Part shown: in pieces, positions 8,639 to 34,457 of the stretch | Position numbering within the stretch: the stretch's first letter is position 1 | How the letters are laid out: every line of letters begins with the position of its first letter | DNA from: a virus | Strand: one strand, 5' to 3' | Length of the DNA stretch: 34,912 nt | Virus record (IMG/VR): IMGVR_UViG_3300046791_000134 | Span: 1 to 34,912 of that record | Program-made: the position numbers and the translations under genes | The notes under the pieces: model-generated | What the model was told of the DNA's origin: nothing | Seen by the model: the letters and a program-made list of their open reading frames with translations, nothing else | Databases searched by the model: none

Positions 8639-9383
8639 GAATCAGAAGAAGATCCCGAGTGATCCGCTGGTGAAAGCGGAGATGGAGCACGCGGTCAAGG
8701 CTGCGGAGCTTGCGGACATCGTGCCGCCCGGGCAGGTCCGCAAGCGCAGGAAGCCACGCACTGGGAGGGAGGGATACAAGGGGAAGATCGTCGAGGATCG
8801 TCGGGAGACGGATCCCAGGGGGTCCCTCTCGTTTGAGACGCTCGCGAAGGTCGAGACCCTCCGGCTCGTGAACGGCCGGTACATGTCGATGTCTCGGGCG
8901 CAGGCTGTCAAGCGGGTGGTGAGGCGTATCAGGCTCCTCATGGGGGTGGACTCCCCACCGAATGCCGTGCTCAAGTGGTGGGTCTCAGAGATGGTCGCGA
9001 ATCTCGAGGAGGATTCGGGCGTCGTGCGCCTGGGAGCCCTCCGGGTGCTCGCTGAGGCTATCGGGCTGCTCCGGCCGGGTGTGGGGCTCATGACCAGGGC
9101 CCAAGCCCCGAGCTGGATCCCCAAGGTGACGTTCAAGACCATTCCTCCCAAGCAGAAACTCGCCCATGCCTCCGGCGTCCAGAAGCTCGCGAACCTGGAG
9201 CTTGCAGAGAAGGGGCCGCCCGCTGTGCCGGTCGAGACCGTCCCGGCCGTCATCGTCCCGCCGCCACCGTCTGCACCTCCCAAGCCACTCGCCATGAACA
9301 ACGTCGTGAAGTTCTCCCAGTCGAACAACCCCGACGATTGGTCGACCTCTGGAAACGCCGGAGCCGTCACCGTGCAGCCGTGA
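8589..9383 (+). CDS. terS: Probable small terminase subunit
   Basis: A 264-residue protein placed directly before the large terminase and overlapping it by four bases. ATG 8589 has GGAG 4 bases upstream. The N-terminal 90 residues are basic, the middle is helical (LSFETLAKVETLRLVNGRYMSMSRAQAVKRVVRRIRLL is one such segment in part; keyed by ETLRLVNGRYMSMSRA), and the C-terminus is Pro-rich (PPPPSAPPKP). TerS proteins bind phage DNA as rings and feed it to the large subunit. The call rests on position, size and a helical DNA-binding-like core, not on a recognised motif. Confidence 0.5.
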   Translation: MPSSTAGRNGDVPQGHKNQKKIPSDPLVKAEMEHAVKAAELADIVPPGQVRKRRKPRTGREGYKGKIVEDRRETDPRGSLSFETLAKVETLRLVNGRYMSMSRAQAVKRVVRRIRLLMGVDSPPNAVLKWWVSEMVANLEEDSGVVRLGALRVLAEAIGLLRPGVGLMTRAQAPSWIPKVTFKTIPPKQKLAHASGVQKLANLELAEKGPPAVPVETVPAVIVPPPPSAPPKPLAMNNVVKFSQSNNPDDWSTSGNAGAVTVQP

Positions 9384-10852
9384 CCGAACCGCTCGTCGTC
9401 CCGGACGGGCAAATAGAGTACGATCTCTACCCTCATCAGTACCGGGCCCAGGAACTCGCATCCCTCTTCCCGATCTTCGTCCTCTCCGGCGGCGTCCGAA
9501 ACGGAAAGACGCGGGCGGCTATCTGCTGGTGCATGAGTCGCTCCGGTTGGGGGCCGTTCGGCAAGCTGCCCCCGCCGGATAAACCCCGCATCGGCTGGAT
9601 CGTCGTCCCCACCATCACTCCCATGTGGGAACACGTCCGTCCGGAATGGGAGATGATGTGGGGCTTCAAGGATTCCGGCGGCCTCATCATCGACCAGAAG
9701 CTCGCGCCGCAGCACTCGTACACCGTCATGTGCCCGGACGGCGGGGAGATGGTCTGGTACGTGAAAAGCGCCGAACATCCCGACCGCCTCCGCGCTGCGT
9801 CGATCTGGGCGGCTTGGCTGACCGAAGCCGCGATGAACGAAGAGGCCGTCTACTCCATCGTCCAGCAGCGCGTCATCGCCGCTGGCGGGTCCCTTTTCAT
9901 GGAGTCGTCGTCCTTCGGAATCAACTGGTTCGTCAAGCGCGTGAAACGCCGCGCCTCGCACTACGAAGACTGGAGCCCGACGAAACGCGGCGGCATTCCC
10001 AGAGTCGTCAAGGACGACACTCTCGACAAGCGCATCGCCGTCATCCACGGCGTGCCCATCGAAGCGAACGAGTCGATCGACCGTGAGGCCATCGCCGGGA
10101 TTCGCGCCGACGCTTCGACCGAAGAGGCACGCCGCGAGTACGACGGCGAAGACTTCGCCTACAGCGGCCTCATCTGGAAAGCATTCGATCCAGACAAGCA
10201 CGTCCTGAAACATCACCCTACCGAAGATGACCTCGACGGCGCGGAGATCCTGGCCGGGATGGACTTCGGGTGGGAACATCCGTTCGCCCACCTCTGGGTC
10301 GCCCGCAAAGGGAAAACCTACCTCGTGCTCGACGAGTACCGAGAGAGTGCCCGCGTGCTGAAGGACCACGCCGCCGCGCTCCACCGGAGCGAGTACAACT
10401 CGTTCGTGACGTGGCGCTATCGTGACCCCTCCGGCGTCCAGGCCGCCGCCGAGATGACCGACTACAAGATCGGATCGACGAACGCGGACAATGACGTCGA
10501 CCTCGGGTGTAACGCCGTCGCCCAAGCGTTCGAGAGCGGGAATCTCATCATCTCCCCTCGCTGCGAAAAGCTGATCGACGAGATCGGCGGCTTCCACCGC
10601 GACGAGAAGACAGGGAAAATCGTGAAGATCAAGGACGACCTCTGCGACTGCCTCCGCTACATCATCTATTCCGACAAGCTCTCCGGGGGTCCGATGAATC
10701 TCCCGCACTACTCGCCCGATCCGGTGAGCGGACACATGAAGCTCCAGAGCGACGACCCGGAGCTCCTGGAAAGCCTTGGCGCGGATGACACCATTCCGCT
10801 CGCGGACGGGATCGGCGGGGTGGAGGACGATTCTTCCGGCGAGATCATATGA
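9380..10852 (+). CDS. terL: Large terminase subunit
   Basis: A 490-residue packaging motor and nuclease. The Walker A motif is GGVRNGKT (37-44), the Walker B-like strand is AAWLTEA near 145-151 with the catalytic Glu, and the RNase H-like nuclease shows AGMDFGW near 292 and DDLCDCLRY near 418, which supply the metal-binding Asp residues. It hydrolyses ATP to drive DNA into the prohead at the portal and cuts the genome. A GTG at 9380 overlapping the upstream stop (GTGA) is preferred over an in-frame TTG at 9338; neither has a strong SD. The stop overlaps the next ATG (ATGA). Confidence 0.95.
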   Translation: MTEPLVVPDGQIEYDLYPHQYRAQELASLFPIFVLSGGVRNGKTRAAICWCMSRSGWGPFGKLPPPDKPRIGWIVVPTITPMWEHVRPEWEMMWGFKDSGGLIIDQKLAPQHSYTVMCPDGGEMVWYVKSAEHPDRLRAASIWAAWLTEAAMNEEAVYSIVQQRVIAAGGSLFMESSSFGINWFVKRVKRRASHYEDWSPTKRGGIPRVVKDDTLDKRIAVIHGVPIEANESIDREAIAGIRADASTEEARREYDGEDFAYSGLIWKAFDPDKHVLKHHPTEDDLDGAEILAGMDFGWEHPFAHLWVARKGKTYLVLDEYRESARVLKDHAAALHRSEYNSFVTWRYRDPSGVQAAAEMTDYKIGSTNADNDVDLGCNAVAQAFESGNLIISPRCEKLIDEIGGFHRDEKTGKIVKIKDDLCDCLRYIIYSDKLSGGPMNLPHYSPDPVSGHMKLQSDDPELLESLGADDTIPLADGIGGVEDDSSGEII

Positions 10853-10914
10853 CGAAATACCCATATAAATATGCTTGTATATTTGTTGGGCTCGGGCTAT
10901 GCTCCTTTGTGTGA
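10849..10914 (+). CDS. 21-residue hydrophobic peptide ORF
   Basis: ATG overlaps the terL stop (ATGA) and the TGA overlaps a GTG that can start the next gene (GTGA). The 21-residue product, MTKYPYKYA then CIFVGLGLCSFV, is a short hydrophobic peptide with two Cys. The chained four-base overlaps are the main support; it could equally be a translational bridge with no product function. The DNA here is AT-rich (about 10855-10885), unlike its surroundings. Confidence 0.35.
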   Translation: MTKYPYKYACIFVGLGLCSFV

Positions 10915-11171
10915 GGGCTGCCGCTGGATTTCGGTGGGTACGCTGCCGGAAGTGCTCAGAGCAGTACGAGGTGGCAGTGAACCCGTGGAATCCCAGTCTC
11001 TCGGGTTGTGTCATCCGCGTGGGCCCAGGCGGAAAGTGTGGCGGCATACTCGAGGCGGTGAAATCCGCCGGGCCGATCAAGCCGAAGATGGTGGGGGAAT
11101 TCGCCAGCCCAGACGAAAAGAACGAACTCGACGCCTTTTTGTCGAAGACCGATCTCTTAGGAGAAAAGTGA
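10911..11171 (+). CDS. Zinc-ribbon protein 1 of 5
   Basis: An 86-residue product. Cys12-x2-Cys15, Cys33 and Cys43 fit a zinc ribbon (RCRKCSEQYEV, GGKCGG); the rest is a charged helical tail (FASPDEKNELDAFLSKTD). GTG 10911 is preferred because it overlaps the preceding stop; ATG 10899 is an alternative. It is the first of five small Cys-pair proteins between terL and the portal. Function is unknown; zinc ribbons often mediate contacts with nucleic acid or protein. Confidence 0.6.
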   Translation: MRAAAGFRWVRCRKCSEQYEVAVNPWNPSLSGCVIRVGPGGKCGGILEAVKSAGPIKPKMVGEFASPDEKNELDAFLSKTDLLGEK

Positions 11172-11172
11172 C

Positions 11173-11514
11173 ATGCCCGACGCCGAACTCCCCGTAGGGA
11201 TGCAGGCTGGCCCCTCGCCTGAACCCCAGATCCCCGAGCAGCTCGTCGACGAGATGGGCGTCCAGAATCCCGTCTACGACGTGTCGAAGTTCGTGAAGTA
11301 CCGCTACTACAAGTGCCAGCGGTGCGGCAAGAAGGAGTTCGCGGGCGCAATGGACATGGAGGAGTACGTCGATTGCCCATGCGTCGCCGGTCCTGTCGAC
11401 CCGAAGACCAAGAAGACGCCCCACGGCCAGATGAAGCTGCTCGTCTACGTCTCCCGGCGCGACAAGCTGCCGATGACGACCGAGGATTACGAGGAGGCGA
11501 AGCTACAGAAATGA
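11173..11514 (+). CDS. Zinc-ribbon protein 2 of 5
   Basis: A 113-residue product starting MPDAELPVGMQ, with AGGAG 10 bases before the ATG. Cys48-x2-Cys51 (YYKCQRCGKKEF) and Cys68-x-Cys70 form a ribbon, embedded between a Pro-rich N-terminus and a C-terminal segment (GQMKLLVYVSRRDKL). The stop overlaps the next ATG (ATGA). No named family. Its strand-turn-strand spacing resembles eukaryote-like or RPB9-like ribbons only loosely. Confidence 0.7.
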   Translation: MPDAELPVGMQAGPSPEPQIPEQLVDEMGVQNPVYDVSKFVKYRYYKCQRCGKKEFAGAMDMEEYVDCPCVAGPVDPKTKKTPHGQMKLLVYVSRRDKLPMTTEDYEEAKLQK

Positions 11515-12002
11515 AGATCGAACGACGCGGATTTCTTGGCGGCATCCTCGGTCTGTTCGGCGCAGCCGCCGTCCAGCCGGAAGCCGCCGCCGCTCCGAAG
11601 CTCGAGCCGAAACCGGAACCCAAGCAGGAGTCGAGCGTCGAGTTCTGGATCGGCGTGGCCGCGCAGGAGTGTTTCGATCGGGATCTCAAACCCCTCATCG
11701 AACAGTGGCTCCTCGACAGCGTCCGGTGGAAGAAATATCGTCGGGCGAAGTTCATGCTCGATGGGCCGATGGACGGTGGGTACTACCTGACCGTGACGTC
11801 TCTATCGCCGAAGGAACTCGAACTTGGAAAAGATCATGCGGTAGGGGCTATCAAAATGAAGCTCCTGACCGGCGAGCTCACTTTCATGGAAGTCCTCTCG
11901 ACGTGCAAGCGGTTCACCGACGACCAGAAGTACGTGACGCTTCAGCGCGGCCGGGTCCGCGTTGTCAACGACGTTTTCTTCAACCGGAAGGAGAATGACT
12001 GA
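11511..12002 (+). CDS. Protein with Tat-like N-terminus, unknown function
   Basis: A 163-residue product starting MKIERRGFLGGILGLFGAAA. The twin Arg, Phe, Leu and the following hydrophobic, Ala-rich stretch match a twin-arginine export signal, though a phage protein with such an N-terminus need not be exported. After an Ala/Glu/Pro linker (residues 22-43) comes a globular domain of about 115 residues (SVEFWIGVAAQECFDRDL, WLLDSVRWKKYRRAKFM, TFMEVLSTCKRFTDDQKY). Start and stop overlap both neighbours, so it is co-translated with the zinc-ribbon genes. No family is recognised. Confidence 0.65.
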   Translation: MKIERRGFLGGILGLFGAAAVQPEAAAAPKLEPKPEPKQESSVEFWIGVAAQECFDRDLKPLIEQWLLDSVRWKKYRRAKFMLDGPMDGGYYLTVTSLSPKELELGKDHAVGAIKMKLLTGELTFMEVLSTCKRFTDDQKYVTLQRGRVRVVNDVFFNRKEND

Positions 12003-25362: not shown

Positions 25363-26811
25363 ATGGCGACGACAGGTGGCGACAACACGGAACATGCCCG
25401 CCGCGTGAAGGCGCTCCTGGAGAAGACTCAGGCCGTTCTCCCGAGGATCATGGACGATGCGATCGAGACGGGGGACTTCTCCAAGGTTGAAAAGGCGCAG
25501 CAGGCCGTGGCTCGGCTGTCTGAGCTTGGCAATCGCACCTTGGAGTCGATCTCCGGACACCTTCCGGTCACGCTCTCGGGTCCCGATGAGGGCGGCTCTC
25601 CTGAAGACCCTGGCGAGCCCACGGTCATGCCGCCCGACGATCCGGCTCCAGAGCCGCAGGGACGGCTCTCTGGGCTCGGAATGCCGGGTGGCAATGAGGG
25701 CGATTACTCCGACATCGACTTGGCCCTGGAGAGAGCGAAGAAGATCGACCATCCTAGGGGCAGCCTGTCAGGTTTGGAGGACATCGACAGCACGCTGGCC
25801 GACGCGCAGCGCATCAACTCAGGGGAGCCGCCCGATCCGGAGGGTCTCTACCCGGAGGGGGCTGGCACGCTTCTCGAACGCGCCCGGAAGCTGAGGGAGT
25901 CGTCCGAAAAACCAGACTTCCAAGTCTCTTCCCGGGAAGAGAATCCGCCTCCAGAGGAGCCCGAGGTGGGTGGTGAGATCCCGCCTCCCTCCGTCAATCC
26001 GCTCGAAGGCGAGCAAGAGCCGCCGCCCATCGAGAAGGTTGCGCCCAAGGTAGAGCAGGACTTCGGGGGCAACCCGCTCGCCGTGGCCGACGACATCGAG
26101 CGCCATGCCGAACAGCAGGGGGCCAGCGAGTCGGAGCGAGAATTCCTGCGCCGCGTGAAGGCCGAACTCGGGGAGCGCCCGAAAGCGTTCACGATCACCA
26201 AGCTCCTTGCCGCCCTCGCTCTCGGGGCCGGGTCCATCGTCGGAGCGTGGCTCACCCACCGCTATAGCGGTCAGGCCCTCGTCGATCTGAGCGAGGATCA
26301 GAAGGACTACGACAAGCGCAGGGGTGAGATCGGCCGCGAAGTTTATCACGAAAACAAGGCGCTTTCCCGTGCCCGTGAGAATCAGGCCGCCATGGAAGGG
26401 CGTCTCTCGAAGCTCGAACTCGGGCGGGATGCTCGGCAGGAAGCGCAGCTTGCGACACGTAAGGAGCTCGCAGCCAATACCGAAGCGGGCAGGGATTCTC
26501 GTCTCTCTACCCAGGAGGCCGGGAAGGGGCAGCGCCTTGACACGCTGGAAGGCGGCCGGAACGCACGGCAGGACAAGCAGATTTCCGCGCAGAAGGATCT
26601 CGCTCGCCTCCGTGCGGACCTGCACCCCGAGAAGATGGCCCACTGGAGCGACTCCGACAAGCAGGAGTCGATCCGGCTCCGGCAGGCCATCAACAACATC
26701 GACCGGAACATGATGTTCTCGGCGGATCAGCCGGGCGATGAGGCCAAGAAGGGCGATTTCATTCGGCAACTGAACGATCTAATCGAGCGTAACCGTCAGG
26801 CAGGGAAATGA
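25363..26811 (+). CDS. Ejection-type virion protein with TM segment
   Basis: A 482-residue protein. The first 70 residues are helical, residues 70-245 are Pro/Glu/Gly-rich and disordered, residues 276-298 form a hydrophobic segment (LLAALALGAGSIVGAWL), and the last 180 residues are long Arg/Glu/Gln helices with near repeats (LELGRDARQEAQLATRKEL, LEGGRNARQDKQISAQKDL). The layout fits a protein threaded out of the virion into the host membrane. It starts two bases after the upstream stop and ends in an ATGA overlap with the next gene. Confidence 0.65.
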   Translation: MATTGGDNTEHARRVKALLEKTQAVLPRIMDDAIETGDFSKVEKAQQAVARLSELGNRTLESISGHLPVTLSGPDEGGSPEDPGEPTVMPPDDPAPEPQGRLSGLGMPGGNEGDYSDIDLALERAKKIDHPRGSLSGLEDIDSTLADAQRINSGEPPDPEGLYPEGAGTLLERARKLRESSEKPDFQVSSREENPPPEEPEVGGEIPPPSVNPLEGEQEPPPIEKVAPKVEQDFGGNPLAVADDIERHAEQQGASESEREFLRRVKAELGERPKAFTITKLLAALALGAGSIVGAWLTHRYSGQALVDLSEDQKDYDKRRGEIGREVYHENKALSRARENQAAMEGRLSKLELGRDARQEAQLATRKELAANTEAGRDSRLSTQEAGKGQRLDTLEGGRNARQDKQISAQKDLARLRADLHPEKMAHWSDSDKQESIRLRQAINNIDRNMMFSADQPGDEAKKGDFIRQLNDLIERNRQAGK

Positions 26812-29800
26812 ACGAGGTCAGCTTCCCCGAGGTCGAGTCGACCATCTCCTTTCCAGAGGTGGAGGCCCCCGCTGTCTCGTTCCCTGAGGTGGAGACGCCT
26901 GCCGTGTCGTTTCCGGAGGTCGAGCAGGAGCAGCCGCAGGAGGCCGCCCCCGGCAAGCCTCAAGCTCAGAAGCCCGTCACCCCGGTTGGGGACACCATCG
27001 ACGCCATCACGAACCAGATGAATTCGTGGTTCGGACAGGACCCGAAGGCCGCTCCCGCTCAGCAGGAGAGGACCATCGGAGGCTTCGCCAAGAACATCCT
27101 CCCCAGCATCGGCAAGAACGTCCGGGACATCGGCAAGGGCATTCTCCTGGCCCCGGTCATGGGCGTAAAGGCGGCCTCCGATCTCTACCGGGAGGCGTCC
27201 AAGCCCGATCAGCGGTGGAAGAACGAGACCAGCGCCGGGAAGATGCTGAAGGACGTGTTCGGCGGCGCTGTAGAGCAGGTCGGGGACAGCCTGATCGACA
27301 AGTACGCCGAGGCGTACTACGACCGCAAGGGCCTGAAGCCTCACGAGCAGGGTGGTCATGGTGCTTGGGTGCCTGACCCAGAGAACCCCGGCCACCTCAA
27401 GAAGGACGAAAGCACGGTTTCCGGGGCCATCGGGAGGGCTGCCTATGAGGACCCCATGGGGGTGGCGCTCGACGTGGCTGCTGCGAAGGATATTCTCGCC
27501 GCTGGCGGGAAGGCCGTTGGAAAGACCGCTCGGATGGCTGGCGATCTCTCTGCTGCGCGGAAGGCAGAAGCGGCCATGGAGGCGGTGAAGCCGGGGGCCA
27601 AGGCCATCGAGGCGGGGCTCGAGGCGACCGCCAAGCCGAACATCGTCCAGCGGGTTGGCGGCGCGATCGAGAAGGGGTCGGAGTTGTTCGACACGGCCGG
27701 GAGCCGTGCGGCCCGCGCCGTCTCCGATGCGACCATGAAGGGGCTGAACAAGGTCTCAGGCGGGTGGCTTGGTGCGGCTGATCCGGAGGCCCGCCGTCTC
27801 GCCCTGAGACTCAAAGGCGAGGAGGGGGCGCGAGCCGCCGTCAAAGCCGCCGAAGACGAGAGGTCGCTCGTTCCCGCCTACCAATCCCTCTCGAAAGAGG
27901 AGATCGCGGCGCTCGAGGAAGTGAAGCGTCTCGGGGACGGAGCGTCTCCCAAGGCGCTCGACGTCGTCCACCAGAACCCCATCGCCATCCAGGCCGCCCA
28001 GGACTATGCGGATTACGTGAGCGGCGTCCGGGAAGACTACATGAAGGCGAACGGGCTCAAGAACGATGCTGCCCTGAAAACCCGCGTTGCCGCCCAGTAC
28101 GCCATCGAAAAGGGCTGGGGAACCAAGCCCGGGGCCCTCAAGAAGGCGGCGGCCGAGATCGACCAGATGAAGCAGTTCAAGCCCACCTACGTTCCGACCC
28201 GCGCGGAGGCCGCATCTGGGATGTCCATGGAGAAGGTGCTTGCGGAGCCCAGCACCATCCGGCAGGGGAAGGTTGGATTCCTCGAGCGGTTCAAGGGACA
28301 GCAGCCCTTCGCGTCCGATCCCTTCGAGTACATTCCGAAGATGGCGAAGGACTTCCGGAAGACCGAAGGCAACATCCGGTGGCTCCAGCGGATTCAGGAT
28401 GAGCCGTCCCTCGTCGCGGCCAAGACCGCGAAGGAAGCTCGTGGGCAGGAGCCGATCTTCACCCAGGGGGCCTACAGCAAGTACTTCGACGAGGGCGGGA
28501 AGTACAAGGCCCAGGGGATCTTCCAGCGCCAGCTTGTGAACGAGCACGGCGACCGGGCTTTCTCCATGATGCGGACCCCTGCCGTCCAGAAGCGCATCGC
28601 CCAGATCAGCAAGATCGTCCCGAACGAGACGGTTGGACGGATCCTGAAGCTGGAGTTCTCGAAGTGGGCGAACGAACCCGGGATGCTTATCCGTGGGTGG
28701 GACAAGATCAACAACGTCTTCAAGACCGCCGCCATCAAGTACAACCCGCATTACTACAGCGGGAACGCGGTCGGGGATGCGGTCCTCTCGCTCCTGGCCG
28801 GGGTGACGCCCGGTGATCTCCGGCTTGGGGACAAGCTGAAGGAGTTCGCCCCGTTCCAGGCGCGGCGTGCGGCCAGTGTCCATTCAGACGCCTTCACTGG
28901 GAGGTTCGGGAAGGCGATGGACTGGATCAACGACGTGGACGCCGCCGGGAAGCGCGGCATCATCACCAAGGAAGTTGCGGCAAAGCTCACGAAGGCCGGG
29001 ATCTCAAGAGCGGAACTCGAGGCAGAGCTTCAGCGCGTCCTTCCGTCCGTCGAGAAGTACGCCGACGCCCAGGTGGCTCGGAGCCAAGCCCATGAGATCC
29101 TCGCCAAGCGCCGGGAGGCGCTGTCGAAGGCAACGGGCCGTGGCAAGGCGGCAGCCCAGGCGAAGTACGATCAGGCCGCAGCGGCAGCGCAGGAGATCGA
29201 GAAGACTCTCCCGCAACTCCGCGTGGATGCGGAGCTCGTGCGCCCCGCCATCGAACGGGCGAACCAGTTCTTCGCGGACTATCACGGGCTGGGGCCGATC
29301 GAGCAGTACGTCCTCAGACGCATCTACCCGTTCTATGCTTTCAACAAGGCGATGTTCACGCTGGCCGTCAAGCTCCCGGCCGTGGCCCCGAAGATGGGGG
29401 CCACCCTCCGGCACTTCGCCGACTACATGATCGCGCAGACGAACGAAGACGACCGCCCCGGGCGGCTCAAGGGGTACACCCAGACTGGATTCAAGGGAGA
29501 GGGCGGGAAGCCGGTGTCCGCATCCTTCGAAAGCCTTTCTCCCTTCGGTGGGCTGAAGCCAGGAAGGCTATTGAACGTCGACATCCCCGGATGGATGGAT
29601 CCGCTCCAGAGTCCTATCGTTGCCGCAGGCTACGGGGCGATGGGCGGGAAGACGGTGTATAGCTCGCCGTACGGCGGTGGAGACGTTGTTCCGTCCAAGG
29701 GTGGCAAGGGCTACGAGACTATGCCTGACGGGTCGATCCGAAAGGTTGTTCCGCAGAGCGGGATCCTGGAGACGGCCGGAAAGATGGCCCCCATCCTTCC

Positions 29801-30098
29801 GCAGCTCGAGAGGGCGATCTTCCCGAACGGTGCTGGGGTGTTCACGCCGGAGGCAGCGAAGAAGCGCGGCACGGATAAGCCTCTCAACACGAAGGACCAC
29901 CTCGACGCGCTCTTGAGTTCAATCGGCCTGAAGACGGTGACGAAGACCGTTGGCGAAATGAAGCAGGAGAAGATGCCTCAGGTCTACTCCTACGTGCAGG
30001 ACGCCATCGACGACATCAAGAGGGCGGGCCCGGAGGAAAGACAGAAGAAGGTCCAGCAGCTCCGGACGTGGCTGAAGACAAAGCGGATCGCGGACTAA
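26808..30098 (+). CDS. Large internal virion / ejection protein
   Basis: A 1096-residue protein, the largest in the window, at the end of the structural block where podoviruses keep their giant ejection protein. It begins with four tandem copies of S-F-P-E-V-E spaced by four residues (residues 4-40), then long helices. Motifs near residues 645-665 (AIKYNPHYYSGNAVGDAVLSL) and 840-855 (RRIYPFYAFNKAM) resemble those of large phage polyvalent-type proteins. No lysozyme or transglycosylase motif was seen, unlike T7 gp16. It probably leaves the capsid with the DNA. The start overlaps the upstream stop (ATGA). Confidence 0.7.
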   Translation: MNEVSFPEVESTISFPEVEAPAVSFPEVETPAVSFPEVEQEQPQEAAPGKPQAQKPVTPVGDTIDAITNQMNSWFGQDPKAAPAQQERTIGGFAKNILPSIGKNVRDIGKGILLAPVMGVKAASDLYREASKPDQRWKNETSAGKMLKDVFGGAVEQVGDSLIDKYAEAYYDRKGLKPHEQGGHGAWVPDPENPGHLKKDESTVSGAIGRAAYEDPMGVALDVAAAKDILAAGGKAVGKTARMAGDLSAARKAEAAMEAVKPGAKAIEAGLEATAKPNIVQRVGGAIEKGSELFDTAGSRAARAVSDATMKGLNKVSGGWLGAADPEARRLALRLKGEEGARAAVKAAEDERSLVPAYQSLSKEEIAALEEVKRLGDGASPKALDVVHQNPIAIQAAQDYADYVSGVREDYMKANGLKNDAALKTRVAAQYAIEKGWGTKPGALKKAAAEIDQMKQFKPTYVPTRAEAASGMSMEKVLAEPSTIRQGKVGFLERFKGQQPFASDPFEYIPKMAKDFRKTEGNIRWLQRIQDEPSLVAAKTAKEARGQEPIFTQGAYSKYFDEGGKYKAQGIFQRQLVNEHGDRAFSMMRTPAVQKRIAQISKIVPNETVGRILKLEFSKWANEPGMLIRGWDKINNVFKTAAIKYNPHYYSGNAVGDAVLSLLAGVTPGDLRLGDKLKEFAPFQARRAASVHSDAFTGRFGKAMDWINDVDAAGKRGIITKEVAAKLTKAGISRAELEAELQRVLPSVEKYADAQVARSQAHEILAKRREALSKATGRGKAAAQAKYDQAAAAAQEIEKTLPQLRVDAELVRPAIERANQFFADYHGLGPIEQYVLRRIYPFYAFNKAMFTLAVKLPAVAPKMGATLRHFADYMIAQTNEDDRPGRLKGYTQTGFKGEGGKPVSASFESLSPFGGLKPGRLLNVDIPGWMDPLQSPIVAAGYGAMGGKTVYSSPYGGGDVVPSKGGKGYETMPDGSIRKVVPQSGILETAGKMAPILPQLERAIFPNGAGVFTPEAAKKRGTDKPLNTKDHLDALLSSIGLKTVTKTVGEMKQEKMPQVYSYVQDAIDDIKRAGPEERQKKVQQLRTWLKTKRIAD

Positions 30099-32261: not shown

Positions 32262-32993
32262 CTACCCCTTATCCGCTGAAACGTCTAAATATGCCCCTAT
32301 GAACTCTGCCGCAACTTGCGGGACGATGGCATTTCCGTAGGCGCGGAGCTTGCCCACTCGGGCGGGAACCCCATTAGCCACCCGATCCAGTCGGGGTTCG
32401 GCTTCCCACTGCCGCCGTACAGCCGCCGAAGCTGGTTGCAGATCGACTCTCCTTCGCGCATCGTGTAGCCCTTCCAGTCCCTTGAGGTCGGAGTCGCCCA
32501 CTGCAACCCAGTAAAGTCTCTGCCTGCAATGCGGCGAGGCGACGCCCGCAGCGCACAGATCGGCGGCCCCGACTGCATATCCCAAGTCTTCCAGGTCAGT
32601 CGATACCCCGGAGAGCCATTGACGTCCATCCGCGCTTGCAACCTGTTCGCCAAAGACGATTGAAGGGCGGCGCTCCGCGATGAGCCGATGAAAAGCGGGC
32701 CATAGGTGCCTCTCGTCGCCCAGGCCAGCAGCTTTGCCTGCGACAGAGAAAGGTTGGCAGGGGCAGGAGCCGGTCCAGACTTCTCGGTCTTCGGGCCATC
32801 CAGCGAGGCGCAAGGCGAGGGGCCATCCACCGATGCCAGCAAAGAAGTGCGCTTGGGTGAACCCTTCAAGGTCTTCCGCGCTGACATCCTTGATGCTCCT
32901 CTCGTCTACCTTCCCGATCGGGATGTGCCCGCCGGCGCCAAGGTTCCGCAGCCAACCGGCCGCGTACCCGTCCCACTCGTTGTAGAAGTTCAT
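32262..32993 (-). CDS. Compact DNA cytosine-5 methyltransferase
   Basis: A 243-residue C5 methyltransferase, shorter than the usual 300-400. It transfers methyl from S-adenosylmethionine to cytosine. Motif I is FAGIGG (51-56), motif IV is SCPCQPFS with the nucleophile Cys79, motif VI is GEQV (115-118, Gln instead of the usual Asn), motif VIII is RQRLYW (157-162) and motif X is YGNAIVPQ (219-226). The target-recognition part between VIII and X is only about 55 residues. The N-terminal 45 residues (YNEWDGYAAGWLRNL) are an extension seen, from memory, in a phage subfamily. It likely protects phage DNA from host restriction. No SD is evident at the ATG. Confidence 0.9.
   Translation of the reverse strand: MNFYNEWDGYAAGWLRNLGAGGHIPIGKVDERSIKDVSAEDLEGFTQAHFFAGIGGWPLALRLAGWPEDREVWTGSCPCQPFSVAGKAAGLGDERHLWPAFHRLIAERRPSIVFGEQVASADGRQWLSGVSTDLEDLGYAVGAADLCAAGVASPHCRQRLYWVAVGDSDLKGLEGLHDARRRVDLQPASAAVRRQWEAEPRLDRVANGVPARVGKLRAYGNAIVPQVAAEFIGAYLDVSADKG
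32297..32887 (-). CDS. Overprinted ORF inside the methyltransferase gene
   Basis: A 196-codon frame lies wholly within the methyltransferase gene, on the same strand, in another frame. Its ATG has GAGGAG exactly 8 bases upstream, a better SD than the host gene has. The product is basic and shows LTWKTWDM (97-104), ATPTSRDWKG (131-140), WLMGFPPEW (170-178) and PSSRK near the end. I remember stand-alone phage proteins with this same set, often annotated beside cytosine methyltransferases. The C-terminal motif lies over methyltransferase motif X in the DNA. It may be a real second product or a frame kept open by composition. Confidence 0.55.
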   Translation of the reverse strand: MSARKTLKGSPKRTSLLASVDGPSPCASLDGPKTEKSGPAPAPANLSLSQAKLLAWATRGTYGPLFIGSSRSAALQSSLANRLQARMDVNGSPGYRLTWKTWDMQSGPPICALRASPRRIAGRDFTGLQWATPTSRDWKGYTMREGESICNQLRRLYGGSGKPNPDWIGWLMGFPPEWASSAPTEMPSSRKLRQSS

Positions 32994-33388: not shown

Positions 33389-33602
33389 GCTTTCCTCCGT
33401 TAGATAAATCGCTGGTAGGTTCTTTGTCCCATCCACGTGGCAACTCGAATTCCCACTGGCCGTTCAGGTGTCGAAACTGGGCATGGGCCTTGGTGCAGGA
33501 GTACACGATTACGTCGCCGACGACGGCCCGCTGCCGCGCCAGTCGCTTGCAGCGGTTCCCGCTCTCCGTTGCCTCGCATCTCGGCCATTTCGTTTTTGTC
33601 AC
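33378..33602 (-). CDS. Small Cys-pair protein with GTG start
   Basis: A 74-residue product starting MTKTKWPRCEATESGNRC. The GTG overlaps the stop of the HNH gene (GTGA), which decides the start over longer frames. Cys9 and Cys18, then SCTKAHAQF, suggest one metal site; the rest is polar. It forms a coupled unit with the HNH gene. No family is recognised. Confidence 0.6.
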   Translation of the reverse strand: MTKTKWPRCEATESGNRCKRLARQRAVVGDVIVYSCTKAHAQFRHLNGQWEFELPRGWDKEPTSDLSNGGKHGT

Positions 33603-34165
33603 GTGAGATCTTGTACCTTTCTCCCGGGCTTCTTCAGTCCCCGGGCGTGCCTCTCTTCCTGCTGCTTCTTCAGGAATTCCGCGTAGCAGACTCCGCAGCA
33701 CGATCTCCCAGACTTCCACACCCTCCGCGTCTCAGACAGCTTGTGGCCCTTGGCGCAGAACAACCTCGACCGCCGCATGTTCTCCAGGTGCGTCACGGGC
33801 TCAAGGTGAGCCGGTCTTACGCATCTACGCACCTTGCACAGATGGTCGATGTCCAGGCCCTCGGGGATAGGCCCAACCAGTAGCTCGTAGGCGAAGCGGT
33901 GAGCCATGACGGTCCTAGGCTTCTCCCGGTCGGTCATGGTGTAGATCCCGTAGCCGTTGGACGGGATCCGGCCAGTCCAGAGCCAGCAATCACCGGACTT
34001 GTCCACCATCTCCCAGAAGAGGGCTGCCGTGGGCGTACCGGCGCGTCCTAGCGTGTTACACCGAATGCAGCGCCGGTAGCCGTCCGAGGCGATCCTCATG
34101 CGATGCTGGGTATAGACCCCACCGCAGTATCGCTTCTTCGTGCCGGTTCCCCGGTATCCTCTCAT
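33599..34165 (-). CDS. HNH homing-type endonuclease
   Basis: A 188-residue HNH nuclease. ATG 34165 has AGGGAG 8 bases upstream; 34192 is an alternative. The core is CWLWTGRIPSNGYG, AHRFAYELLVGPIPEG, LDIDHLCKVRRCVRPAHLEPV and THLENMRR, which is the HNH catalytic unit of free-standing phage homing endonucleases. Both ends add zinc-ribbon-like Cys pairs (CIRCNTLG and CCGVCYAEF). Such genes often spread as selfish elements; no intron is seen here. It is the second HNH gene in the window. Confidence 0.85.
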   Translation of the reverse strand: MRGYRGTGTKKRYCGGVYTQHRMRIASDGYRRCIRCNTLGRAGTPTAALFWEMVDKSGDCWLWTGRIPSNGYGIYTMTDREKPRTVMAHRFAYELLVGPIPEGLDIDHLCKVRRCVRPAHLEPVTHLENMRRSRLFCAKGHKLSETRRVWKSGRSCCGVCYAEFLKKQQEERHARGLKKPGRKVQDLT

Positions 34166-34184
34166 CTGTCTACTCCCTAGTAGC

Positions 34185-34457
34185 TCATCCACGCAACAGT
34201 TCCAGAAGCCGGTTGCAGGCGGGGGAGTAGTGCGACTTCGGGGTGTCGCTCATCTCCAGGCCCTCCCGCGCCAGCCGCTCCCGCATCTCGTCACGGAGCG
34301 CCGCGCCGTTCTTTCGCCACTCATCAATCTGAAGGAGGATCAAATCCTTTTCAGCGTCCTTCTCCGCAAACTCCTTCAGGAACGCCTCCATCGCCGTGTA
34401 GTAATCAAGGGTTGGGCCAGCGTTCCAGGCCCGCTTGAATCGCTCTTCGTTTGTCAT
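34185..34457 (-). CDS. Helical hypothetical protein
   Basis: A 90-residue product starting MTNEERFKRAWNAGP, with AAGGACACT before the ATG. It is a charged, largely helical protein (AFLKEFAEKDAEKDLILLQIDEW in part, RDEMRERLAREGLEM). It lies between two leftward genes. No family is recognised. Confidence 0.6.
   Translation of the reverse strand: MTNEERFKRAWNAGPTLDYYTAMEAFLKEFAEKDAEKDLILLQIDEWRKNGAALRDEMRERLAREGLEMSDTPKSHYSPACNRLLELLRG

Follow-up and report, generated by a model that had tools for sequence, protein, structure and literature searches.

The DNA analysed here, which we refer to as the window, is the whole of a virus record in IMG/VR (IMGVR_UViG_3300046791_000134, 34,912 bases). 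Its minus strand carries a cytosine-5 DNA methyltransferase gene, which we named alpha, and a second gene-sized reading frame, beta, on the same DNA (Table 1). A 196-codon open frame inside the methyltransferase gene and on the same strand had been predicted from the sequence, and comparison of the ORFs confirmed it: the beta ORF, counted from its ATG, lies wholly within the alpha ORF at an offset of 106 nt, which places beta in the +1 frame. The original prediction had the overlap running along methyltransferase motifs VIII to X; these motifs are indeed covered, but the overlap takes in nearly all of the enzyme, beginning ahead of motif I at alpha codon 36 and reaching codon 233 (motif X). 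The predicted beta motifs WLMGFPPEW, ATPTSRDWKG and PSSRK are all present, and the serine-rich tail of beta is, as had been proposed, the shifted reading of motif X. The well-spaced GAGGAG ribosome site of the prediction is also seen, as an AGGAG within GAGAGGAGC that ends 8 nt before the beta ATG.

Alpha matches Pfam PF00145 (E = 7e-16; 58.9 bits, above the gathering cut-off of 22) and, in PHROGs, phrog_363 (E = 4e-73). Its motifs follow the order II-III-I-IV to VIII and then X, without motif IX, and by analogy Cys79 would be the catalytic cysteine. Beta matched nothing in Pfam or NCBIfam; in PHROGs it matches phrog_1008 (E = 4e-21) and phrog_31772 (E = 2e-7), both labelled DNA methyltransferase, and phrog_1008 is matched by all 62 betas of our first alignment (A1). 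We found no promoter or terminator above chance around the alpha-beta gene. Elsewhere, the window carries portal, major head and internal virion genes, an HNH endonuclease gene that lies upstream of alpha and is likewise on the minus strand (33599-34192; PF13392, E = 3e-16), and two very long ORFs with no PHROG or Pfam match: one of 1096 codons (26808-30098, plus strand) and one of 1037 codons (8642-11755, minus strand), which runs against the direction of the structural genes.

Table 1. Features of the alpha-beta locus, in window coordinates.
Feature	Position	Strand	Basis or remark
Alpha, cytosine-5 DNA methyltransferase, catalytic subunit	32262..32993	-	243 aa; PF00145, phrog_363
Beta, overlapping +1-frame protein, putative motif IX / DNA-recognition subunit	32297..32887	-	196 aa; phrog_1008, open frame, constraint, motif IX match
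Beta ribosome-binding site, AGGAG	32896..32900	-	8 nt upstream of ATG 32885-32887
Alpha residues 1-37, motif II/III-like, preceding motif I	32883..32993	-	Profile match and structural alignment; overlaps beta in the start codon only
Alpha motif I, FFAGIGGW, residues 50-57	32823..32846	-	M.HhaI alignment and profile match
Alpha motif IV, Pro-Cys-Gln, residues 78-80	32754..32762	-	C79 column invariant (alignment A2); M.HhaI alignment
Beta core, residues 70-117, helix and two strands	32537..32680	-	Best-predicted part of beta, pLDDT about 80
Beta WxTPxxRDxKG unit, residues 130-141	32465..32500	-	1 to 6 such units in homologues
Beta motif IX, residues 162-180, KPNPDWIGWLMGFPPEWAS	32348..32404	-	In the alpha frame, the same DNA lies just before motif X
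Alpha motif X, GNAIVP, residues 220-225	32319..32336	-	Beta's tail reads PSSR here

Homologues of the gene were collected from IMG/VR, phage records and bacterial genomes, and their second frames were compared with a null model in which synonymous codons are permuted within each gene, leaving the protein and its codon usage unchanged. The longest +1 run of the window gene is 202 codons, against a null mean of 88 (p = 0.004), and the null was rejected by the same measure (p < 0.05) in 53 of 60 homologues. These 60 genes contain 217 stops in the +1 frame where 397.5 are expected; the corresponding numbers for the +2 frame are 840 and 874.5. Of 100 full-length genes, 95 have a +1 frame that stays open along 75% or more of the methyltransferase (median 0.91); the five that fall short are L030, L037, L055, L061 and L086. 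By comparison, this extent of open frame was reached by 3 of 121 neighbouring ORFs and by the methyltransferase +2 frame in 0 of 100 genes.

We then compared bases and products between homologues. In the overlap, the third bases of fourfold sites whose amino acid is conserved had identities of 0.468, 0.477 and 0.523 for pairs of 35-45, 45-55 and 55-65% protein identity (random, 0.27), versus 0.256, 0.305 and 0.328 in the non-overlapped N-terminus; the difference is smaller in the closer bins (0.701 vs 0.497 at 65-80%, and 0.873 vs 0.828 at 80-97%). Identity of the +1 product, measured in 66 non-redundant sequences, is 43.4% over motifs V-VIII and 43.9% at the C-terminus, where the null gives 24.2% and 24.6%, compared with 26.2% in the non-overlapped N-terminal control (null 25.5%). 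The first ~60 residues of beta are barely constrained (32.8% vs 28.4% for the null). Since sequence pairs are not independent and the counts come from related sequences, we attach no overall p value to the constraint. Synonymous-site constraint is confined to the region where the frames overlap, and we conclude that beta is a conserved gene and that the dual coding is under selection.

Two internal ATG positions recur as putative starts of beta, each of which lies inside conserved alpha codons. The AGGAG stands 8 nt before the later of these (ATG+22) and is created by an AGG arginine codon. Among 95 loci with a recognisable anchor (109 examined), AGG is used in 36 of the 41 loci that rely on ATG+22 alone, many of the 36 being close relatives, and in 0 of the 54 others; elsewhere in the genes examined, AGG makes up 8.7% of arginine codons. 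A bacterial replicate of 68 loci showed a weaker trend, with AGG in 22 of 44 loci that have ATG+22 (alone or with the other ATG) and in 1 of 24 without it; under another grouping the counts were 14 of 27 and 9 of 41 (p = 0.018). The internal ATG and the AGGAG thus co-vary, and the start site is conserved.

The same double-coded gene is present in many phages and prophages. With a beta profile built from bacterial genomes only, beta was recovered at 98 of 102 viral loci, in each case on top of alpha and in the +1 frame; two of the four loci without a match are cut at contig ends. When genome contigs were scanned with the beta profile, 80 of 204 relatives were kept, and beta overlaps a +1 alpha in every one of the 80. 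None of these 80 is a stand-alone beta gene; the search is not exhaustive, as its pattern is biased towards betas whose motif IX is intact. Related proteins had been described in the original prediction as stand-alone phage proteins deposited beside methyltransferases; relatives are deposited, but those that we examined overlap the methyltransferases instead, as do the kept genome loci. Genome searches at the family and phylum level added 10 loci at 8 distinct places, each of which has both frames. A further seven came from plasmids and E. coli: in five the overlap is clear, and the other two, L190 and L191 on plasmids of Klebsiella aerogenes and Citrobacter amalonaticus, have a shorter overlap and fragmented alpha and beta frames. 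The E. coli matches inspected adjoin phage-type genes.

Beta is uncommon in the genomes sampled: counting the seed genomes, it was found in 5 of 99 genomes in the family of G011 and in 3 of 149 in the phylum of G007. A PF00145 survey of 15 genomes containing these genes returned 30 loci, 27 of which match the alpha profile. Six of the 27 are family members, with +1 open fractions of 0.71-0.99 and beta scores of 249-406 bits, and none of the six shows MGxP, the motif IX pattern, in frame. The other 21 are ordinary or fragmentary, with one ORF appearing twice; their +1 open fractions are 0.14-0.42, none has a beta match, and 16 show the in-frame pattern. Annotation of the family varies. In the PMG1 record (L004) the beta frame alone is annotated, as a DNA methyltransferase, and in the SAP012 record (L006) neither frame is. 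That the overprint recurs and is no accident, as originally proposed, is borne out by the open frame, the synonymous constraint, the start site and the coupling of alpha and beta. The homologues revealed neither frequent stops in the shifted frame, nor a lack of the Shine-Dalgarno sequence, nor a lack of excess constraint, the three observations that the prediction had named as counting against it.

In ordinary C5 methyltransferases motif IX lies between motifs VIII and X, and together with a variable region of the WxTPxxxD type it forms part of the small DNA-recognising domain. Alpha has no motif IX of the MGxP type between VIII and X of its own chain; the match falls in beta, where the consensus is NPxxxxWLMGFPxEW. 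When the beta profile was compared with 13 canonical methyltransferases, the sole match was beta residues 162-180 on motif IX (score 30.3, P = 0.0016, hhalign probability 15.8%, about 20 residues), and 200 column shuffles of this comparison reached a maximum of 18.9, none attaining 30.3. The predicted structure of alpha (pLDDT 82, pTM 0.79) covers the catalytic domain, without a small domain, and is of low confidence at about residues 180-210, where the small domain would be expected; the model aligns with M.HhaI (2z6a) over 183 residues (Z = 14.7, rmsd 3.3). The predicted structure of beta is weak (mean pLDDT 66, pTM 0.31), and a comparison with solved structures gave no sequence relative and, in a fold search, nothing above Z = 3.6. 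We conclude that beta very probably supplies the DNA-recognition side that alpha is missing.

WxTP units, one to six per protein, are present between motifs VIII and X in 69 of 78 betas. All 181 units are free of stops in the alpha frame; in the third frame, 123 contain a stop. Identity in this region by beta codon position is lowest at the third (0.329, vs 0.395 and 0.394), so the sequence there seems to be dictated by beta rather than by alpha. Window positions 32348-32500 and positions 1067-1681 of the locus in mycobacteriophage Hades (L198) hold a near-identical beta segment around ESICNQLRR, and the two alphas are only about 40% identical; the common segment looks like an exchanged cassette. 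The N-terminal part of alpha also departs from the usual arrangement. Profile comparison matched alpha residues 44-70 to motif I and residues 1-46 to canonical motifs II-III, with 0 of 100 column shuffles equally good for the latter. The structural alignment of alpha begins at M.HhaI residue 35, and a profile of the N-terminal part matched no methyltransferase among PDB sequences. Judging from the profile match and the M.HhaI alignment, alpha of the window's subfamily has a local motif permutation, II-III-I-IV.

Natural variants of the arrangement were found among 15 more distant methyltransferase loci, of which all but L060 and L061 (13 loci) match the beta profile in their +1 frame. Hades, S9-5, PS-1 and Genki have an alpha in canonical order with an overlapping beta (the usual, unpermuted order being seen in Hades, Genki and S9-5), and the Genki record annotates both. 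In Shaka and RemusLoopin the chain is split after motif VIII, and the +1 frame carries IX and X together. In the records, each pair is given as two slightly overlapping methylase genes (Shaka gp77/gp76, L197; RemusLoopin 34/35, L200). The second frame remains open well before its annotated start (248 codons in L197 and 298 in L200) and matches the beta profile in that part, which probably places the true start within the first gene. A Gordonia locus (L202) has the first part of beta only. In mycobacteriophage Wachhund, a single frame of 473 aa has its motifs VIII and X separated by the C-terminal part of beta (frame 0; profile positions 146-271, E = 6e-7), and beta positions 58-180 can still be recognised in the +1 frame (E = 7e-12). 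This in-frame fusion is the most direct evidence that beta is a methyltransferase part. The original suggestion that beta might fill in for a short target-recognition region is accordingly the best fit, given the motif IX in beta and the Wachhund fusion.

A similar division of labour has been described for a known enzyme, M.EcoHK31I (YGGCCR). Its small-subunit gene is reported, in a paper from 1995, to lie inside the large one in another frame; the two products have 309 and 176 aa. The window resembles it in having a large chain with motifs I-VIII and X and a small chain with motif IX, and in the nesting of the beta gene within alpha in another frame, as reported for M.EcoHK31I; it differs in being phage-borne, in the II-III-I-IV order of its alpha subfamily and in the variable WxTP units of its beta region. 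Our plasmid and E. coli genome searches recognised no EcoHK31I locus. In PMC3404938, the large subunit of M.EcoHK31I is given motifs I-VIII and X and the smaller polypeptide motif IX alone, and M.AquI is described as naturally made of two polypeptides. Given the precedent of a small subunit with IX alone, the best explanation by analogy is that alpha-beta would work like M.EcoHK31I, a likeness of motif distribution that does not imply descent. M.AquI (CYCGRG) is likewise a two-polypeptide methyltransferase, but its small subunit keeps IX and X, whereas motif X of the window, GNAIVP, is in alpha; its split is resembled more closely by Shaka gp77/gp76 and RemusLoopin 34/35.

The same overlap, with both frames annotated, is found in Escherichia phages K1ind2 and fTaEco03 under the name 'Mte8-like protein', described as a 'putative methyltransferase' in fTaEco03 only; the one phage paper found to mention it gives the name alone (PMC5582158). 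Alpha and beta belong to phrog_363 and phrog_1008, both labelled DNA methyltransferase, and the PHROGs output does not mention the overlap. A search of the open-licence PMC literature found no paper on this overlap in phages, which does not imply that it is unpublished. No partner restriction enzyme is named among the annotated neighbours in the phage records that we viewed. An out-of-frame homing endonuclease, as reported for the ShiLan methylases (PMC11855218), was considered for beta and rejected, since beta lacks any HNH match and does not form an insertion.

Building on the selected dual coding, the conserved start site, the motif IX homology and the in-frame fusion of beta's C-terminal part, we propose that the locus probably encodes an overlapping-gene, two-polypeptide C5 methyltransferase that would work like M.EcoHK31I, with beta as its DNA-recognition side. 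One mRNA would serve both proteins, with beta translated from the internal ATG through its own AGGAG. Alpha, in frame 0, would provide the catalytic domain (AdoMet site, Pro-Cys-Gln loop, motifs up to VIII and the closing motif X helix), and beta, in frame +1, the variable WxTPxxxD region and motif IX. The two would assemble into an active heterodimer, the complete enzyme, which would methylate its target sequence in the phage's own DNA, most likely as protection against host restriction.

Other readings of the second frame fit the data less well. A chance open frame in a GC-rich gene might be considered because the gene has a GC content of 0.62 and seven of the 60 homologues fail to reject the codon-permutation null, but the other 53 reject it and the fourfold-site and product-identity tests both speak against chance, and we regard this explanation as already refuted. 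Third-position constraint could by itself arise from RNA or DNA structure or codon bias, with no second protein; this is very improbable, as such constraint would have to keep a frame of 200-450 codons free of stops, follow the codon phase of beta (with its third position the most variable around the WxTP units), break off where the overlap starts and come with a ribosome-binding site.

If beta is a real protein, it might have another job, as a regulator or an anti-restriction or anti-defence factor overprinted by happenstance, and its helix-hairpin core, with no known relative, leaves structure alone silent on function. We nevertheless think this unlikely: beta holds exactly the motif absent from alpha, never occurs without alpha in the 80 kept genome loci, and has its C-terminal part fused in frame with the methylase in Wachhund. 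Nor does any evidence point to beta modulating methylation, the other option raised by the original prediction. Programmed ribosomal frameshifting from alpha into +1 would instead yield one long enzyme with motifs I-VIII and the C-terminal part of beta. Shaka and RemusLoopin, with IX and X in the +1 frame, would suit such a mechanism well, since a slip after VIII would restore the full canonical order; in the window type, motif X is in frame 0 and the slip product would lose it, and beta has its own conserved ATG with a co-varying AGGAG, which makes frameshifting quite improbable.

The two-polypeptide methyltransferase may extend to a whole clade of phage and prophage enzymes, a broader proposition on which we find ourselves evenly divided. 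In such a clade the recognition half would lie in the +1 frame atop the catalytic half, be inherited with it as one stretch and change as dual-frame cassettes, of the type that the window and Hades share. Few conserved same-strand gene overlaps in tailed phages would be as long or as widespread; the arrangement would predate the permuted alpha subfamily and would have given rise to the in-frame and split forms in mycobacteriophages. If so, specificity and catalysis would be double-coded. Hundreds of phage and prophage genes annotated as 'DNA cytosine methyltransferase' may be half-annotated, and the annotated protein expressed alone may be inactive or untargeted, which would affect methylome assignments and studies of how phages escape restriction. 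The family would also offer a large natural data set on the evolution of two full protein domains in one sequence.
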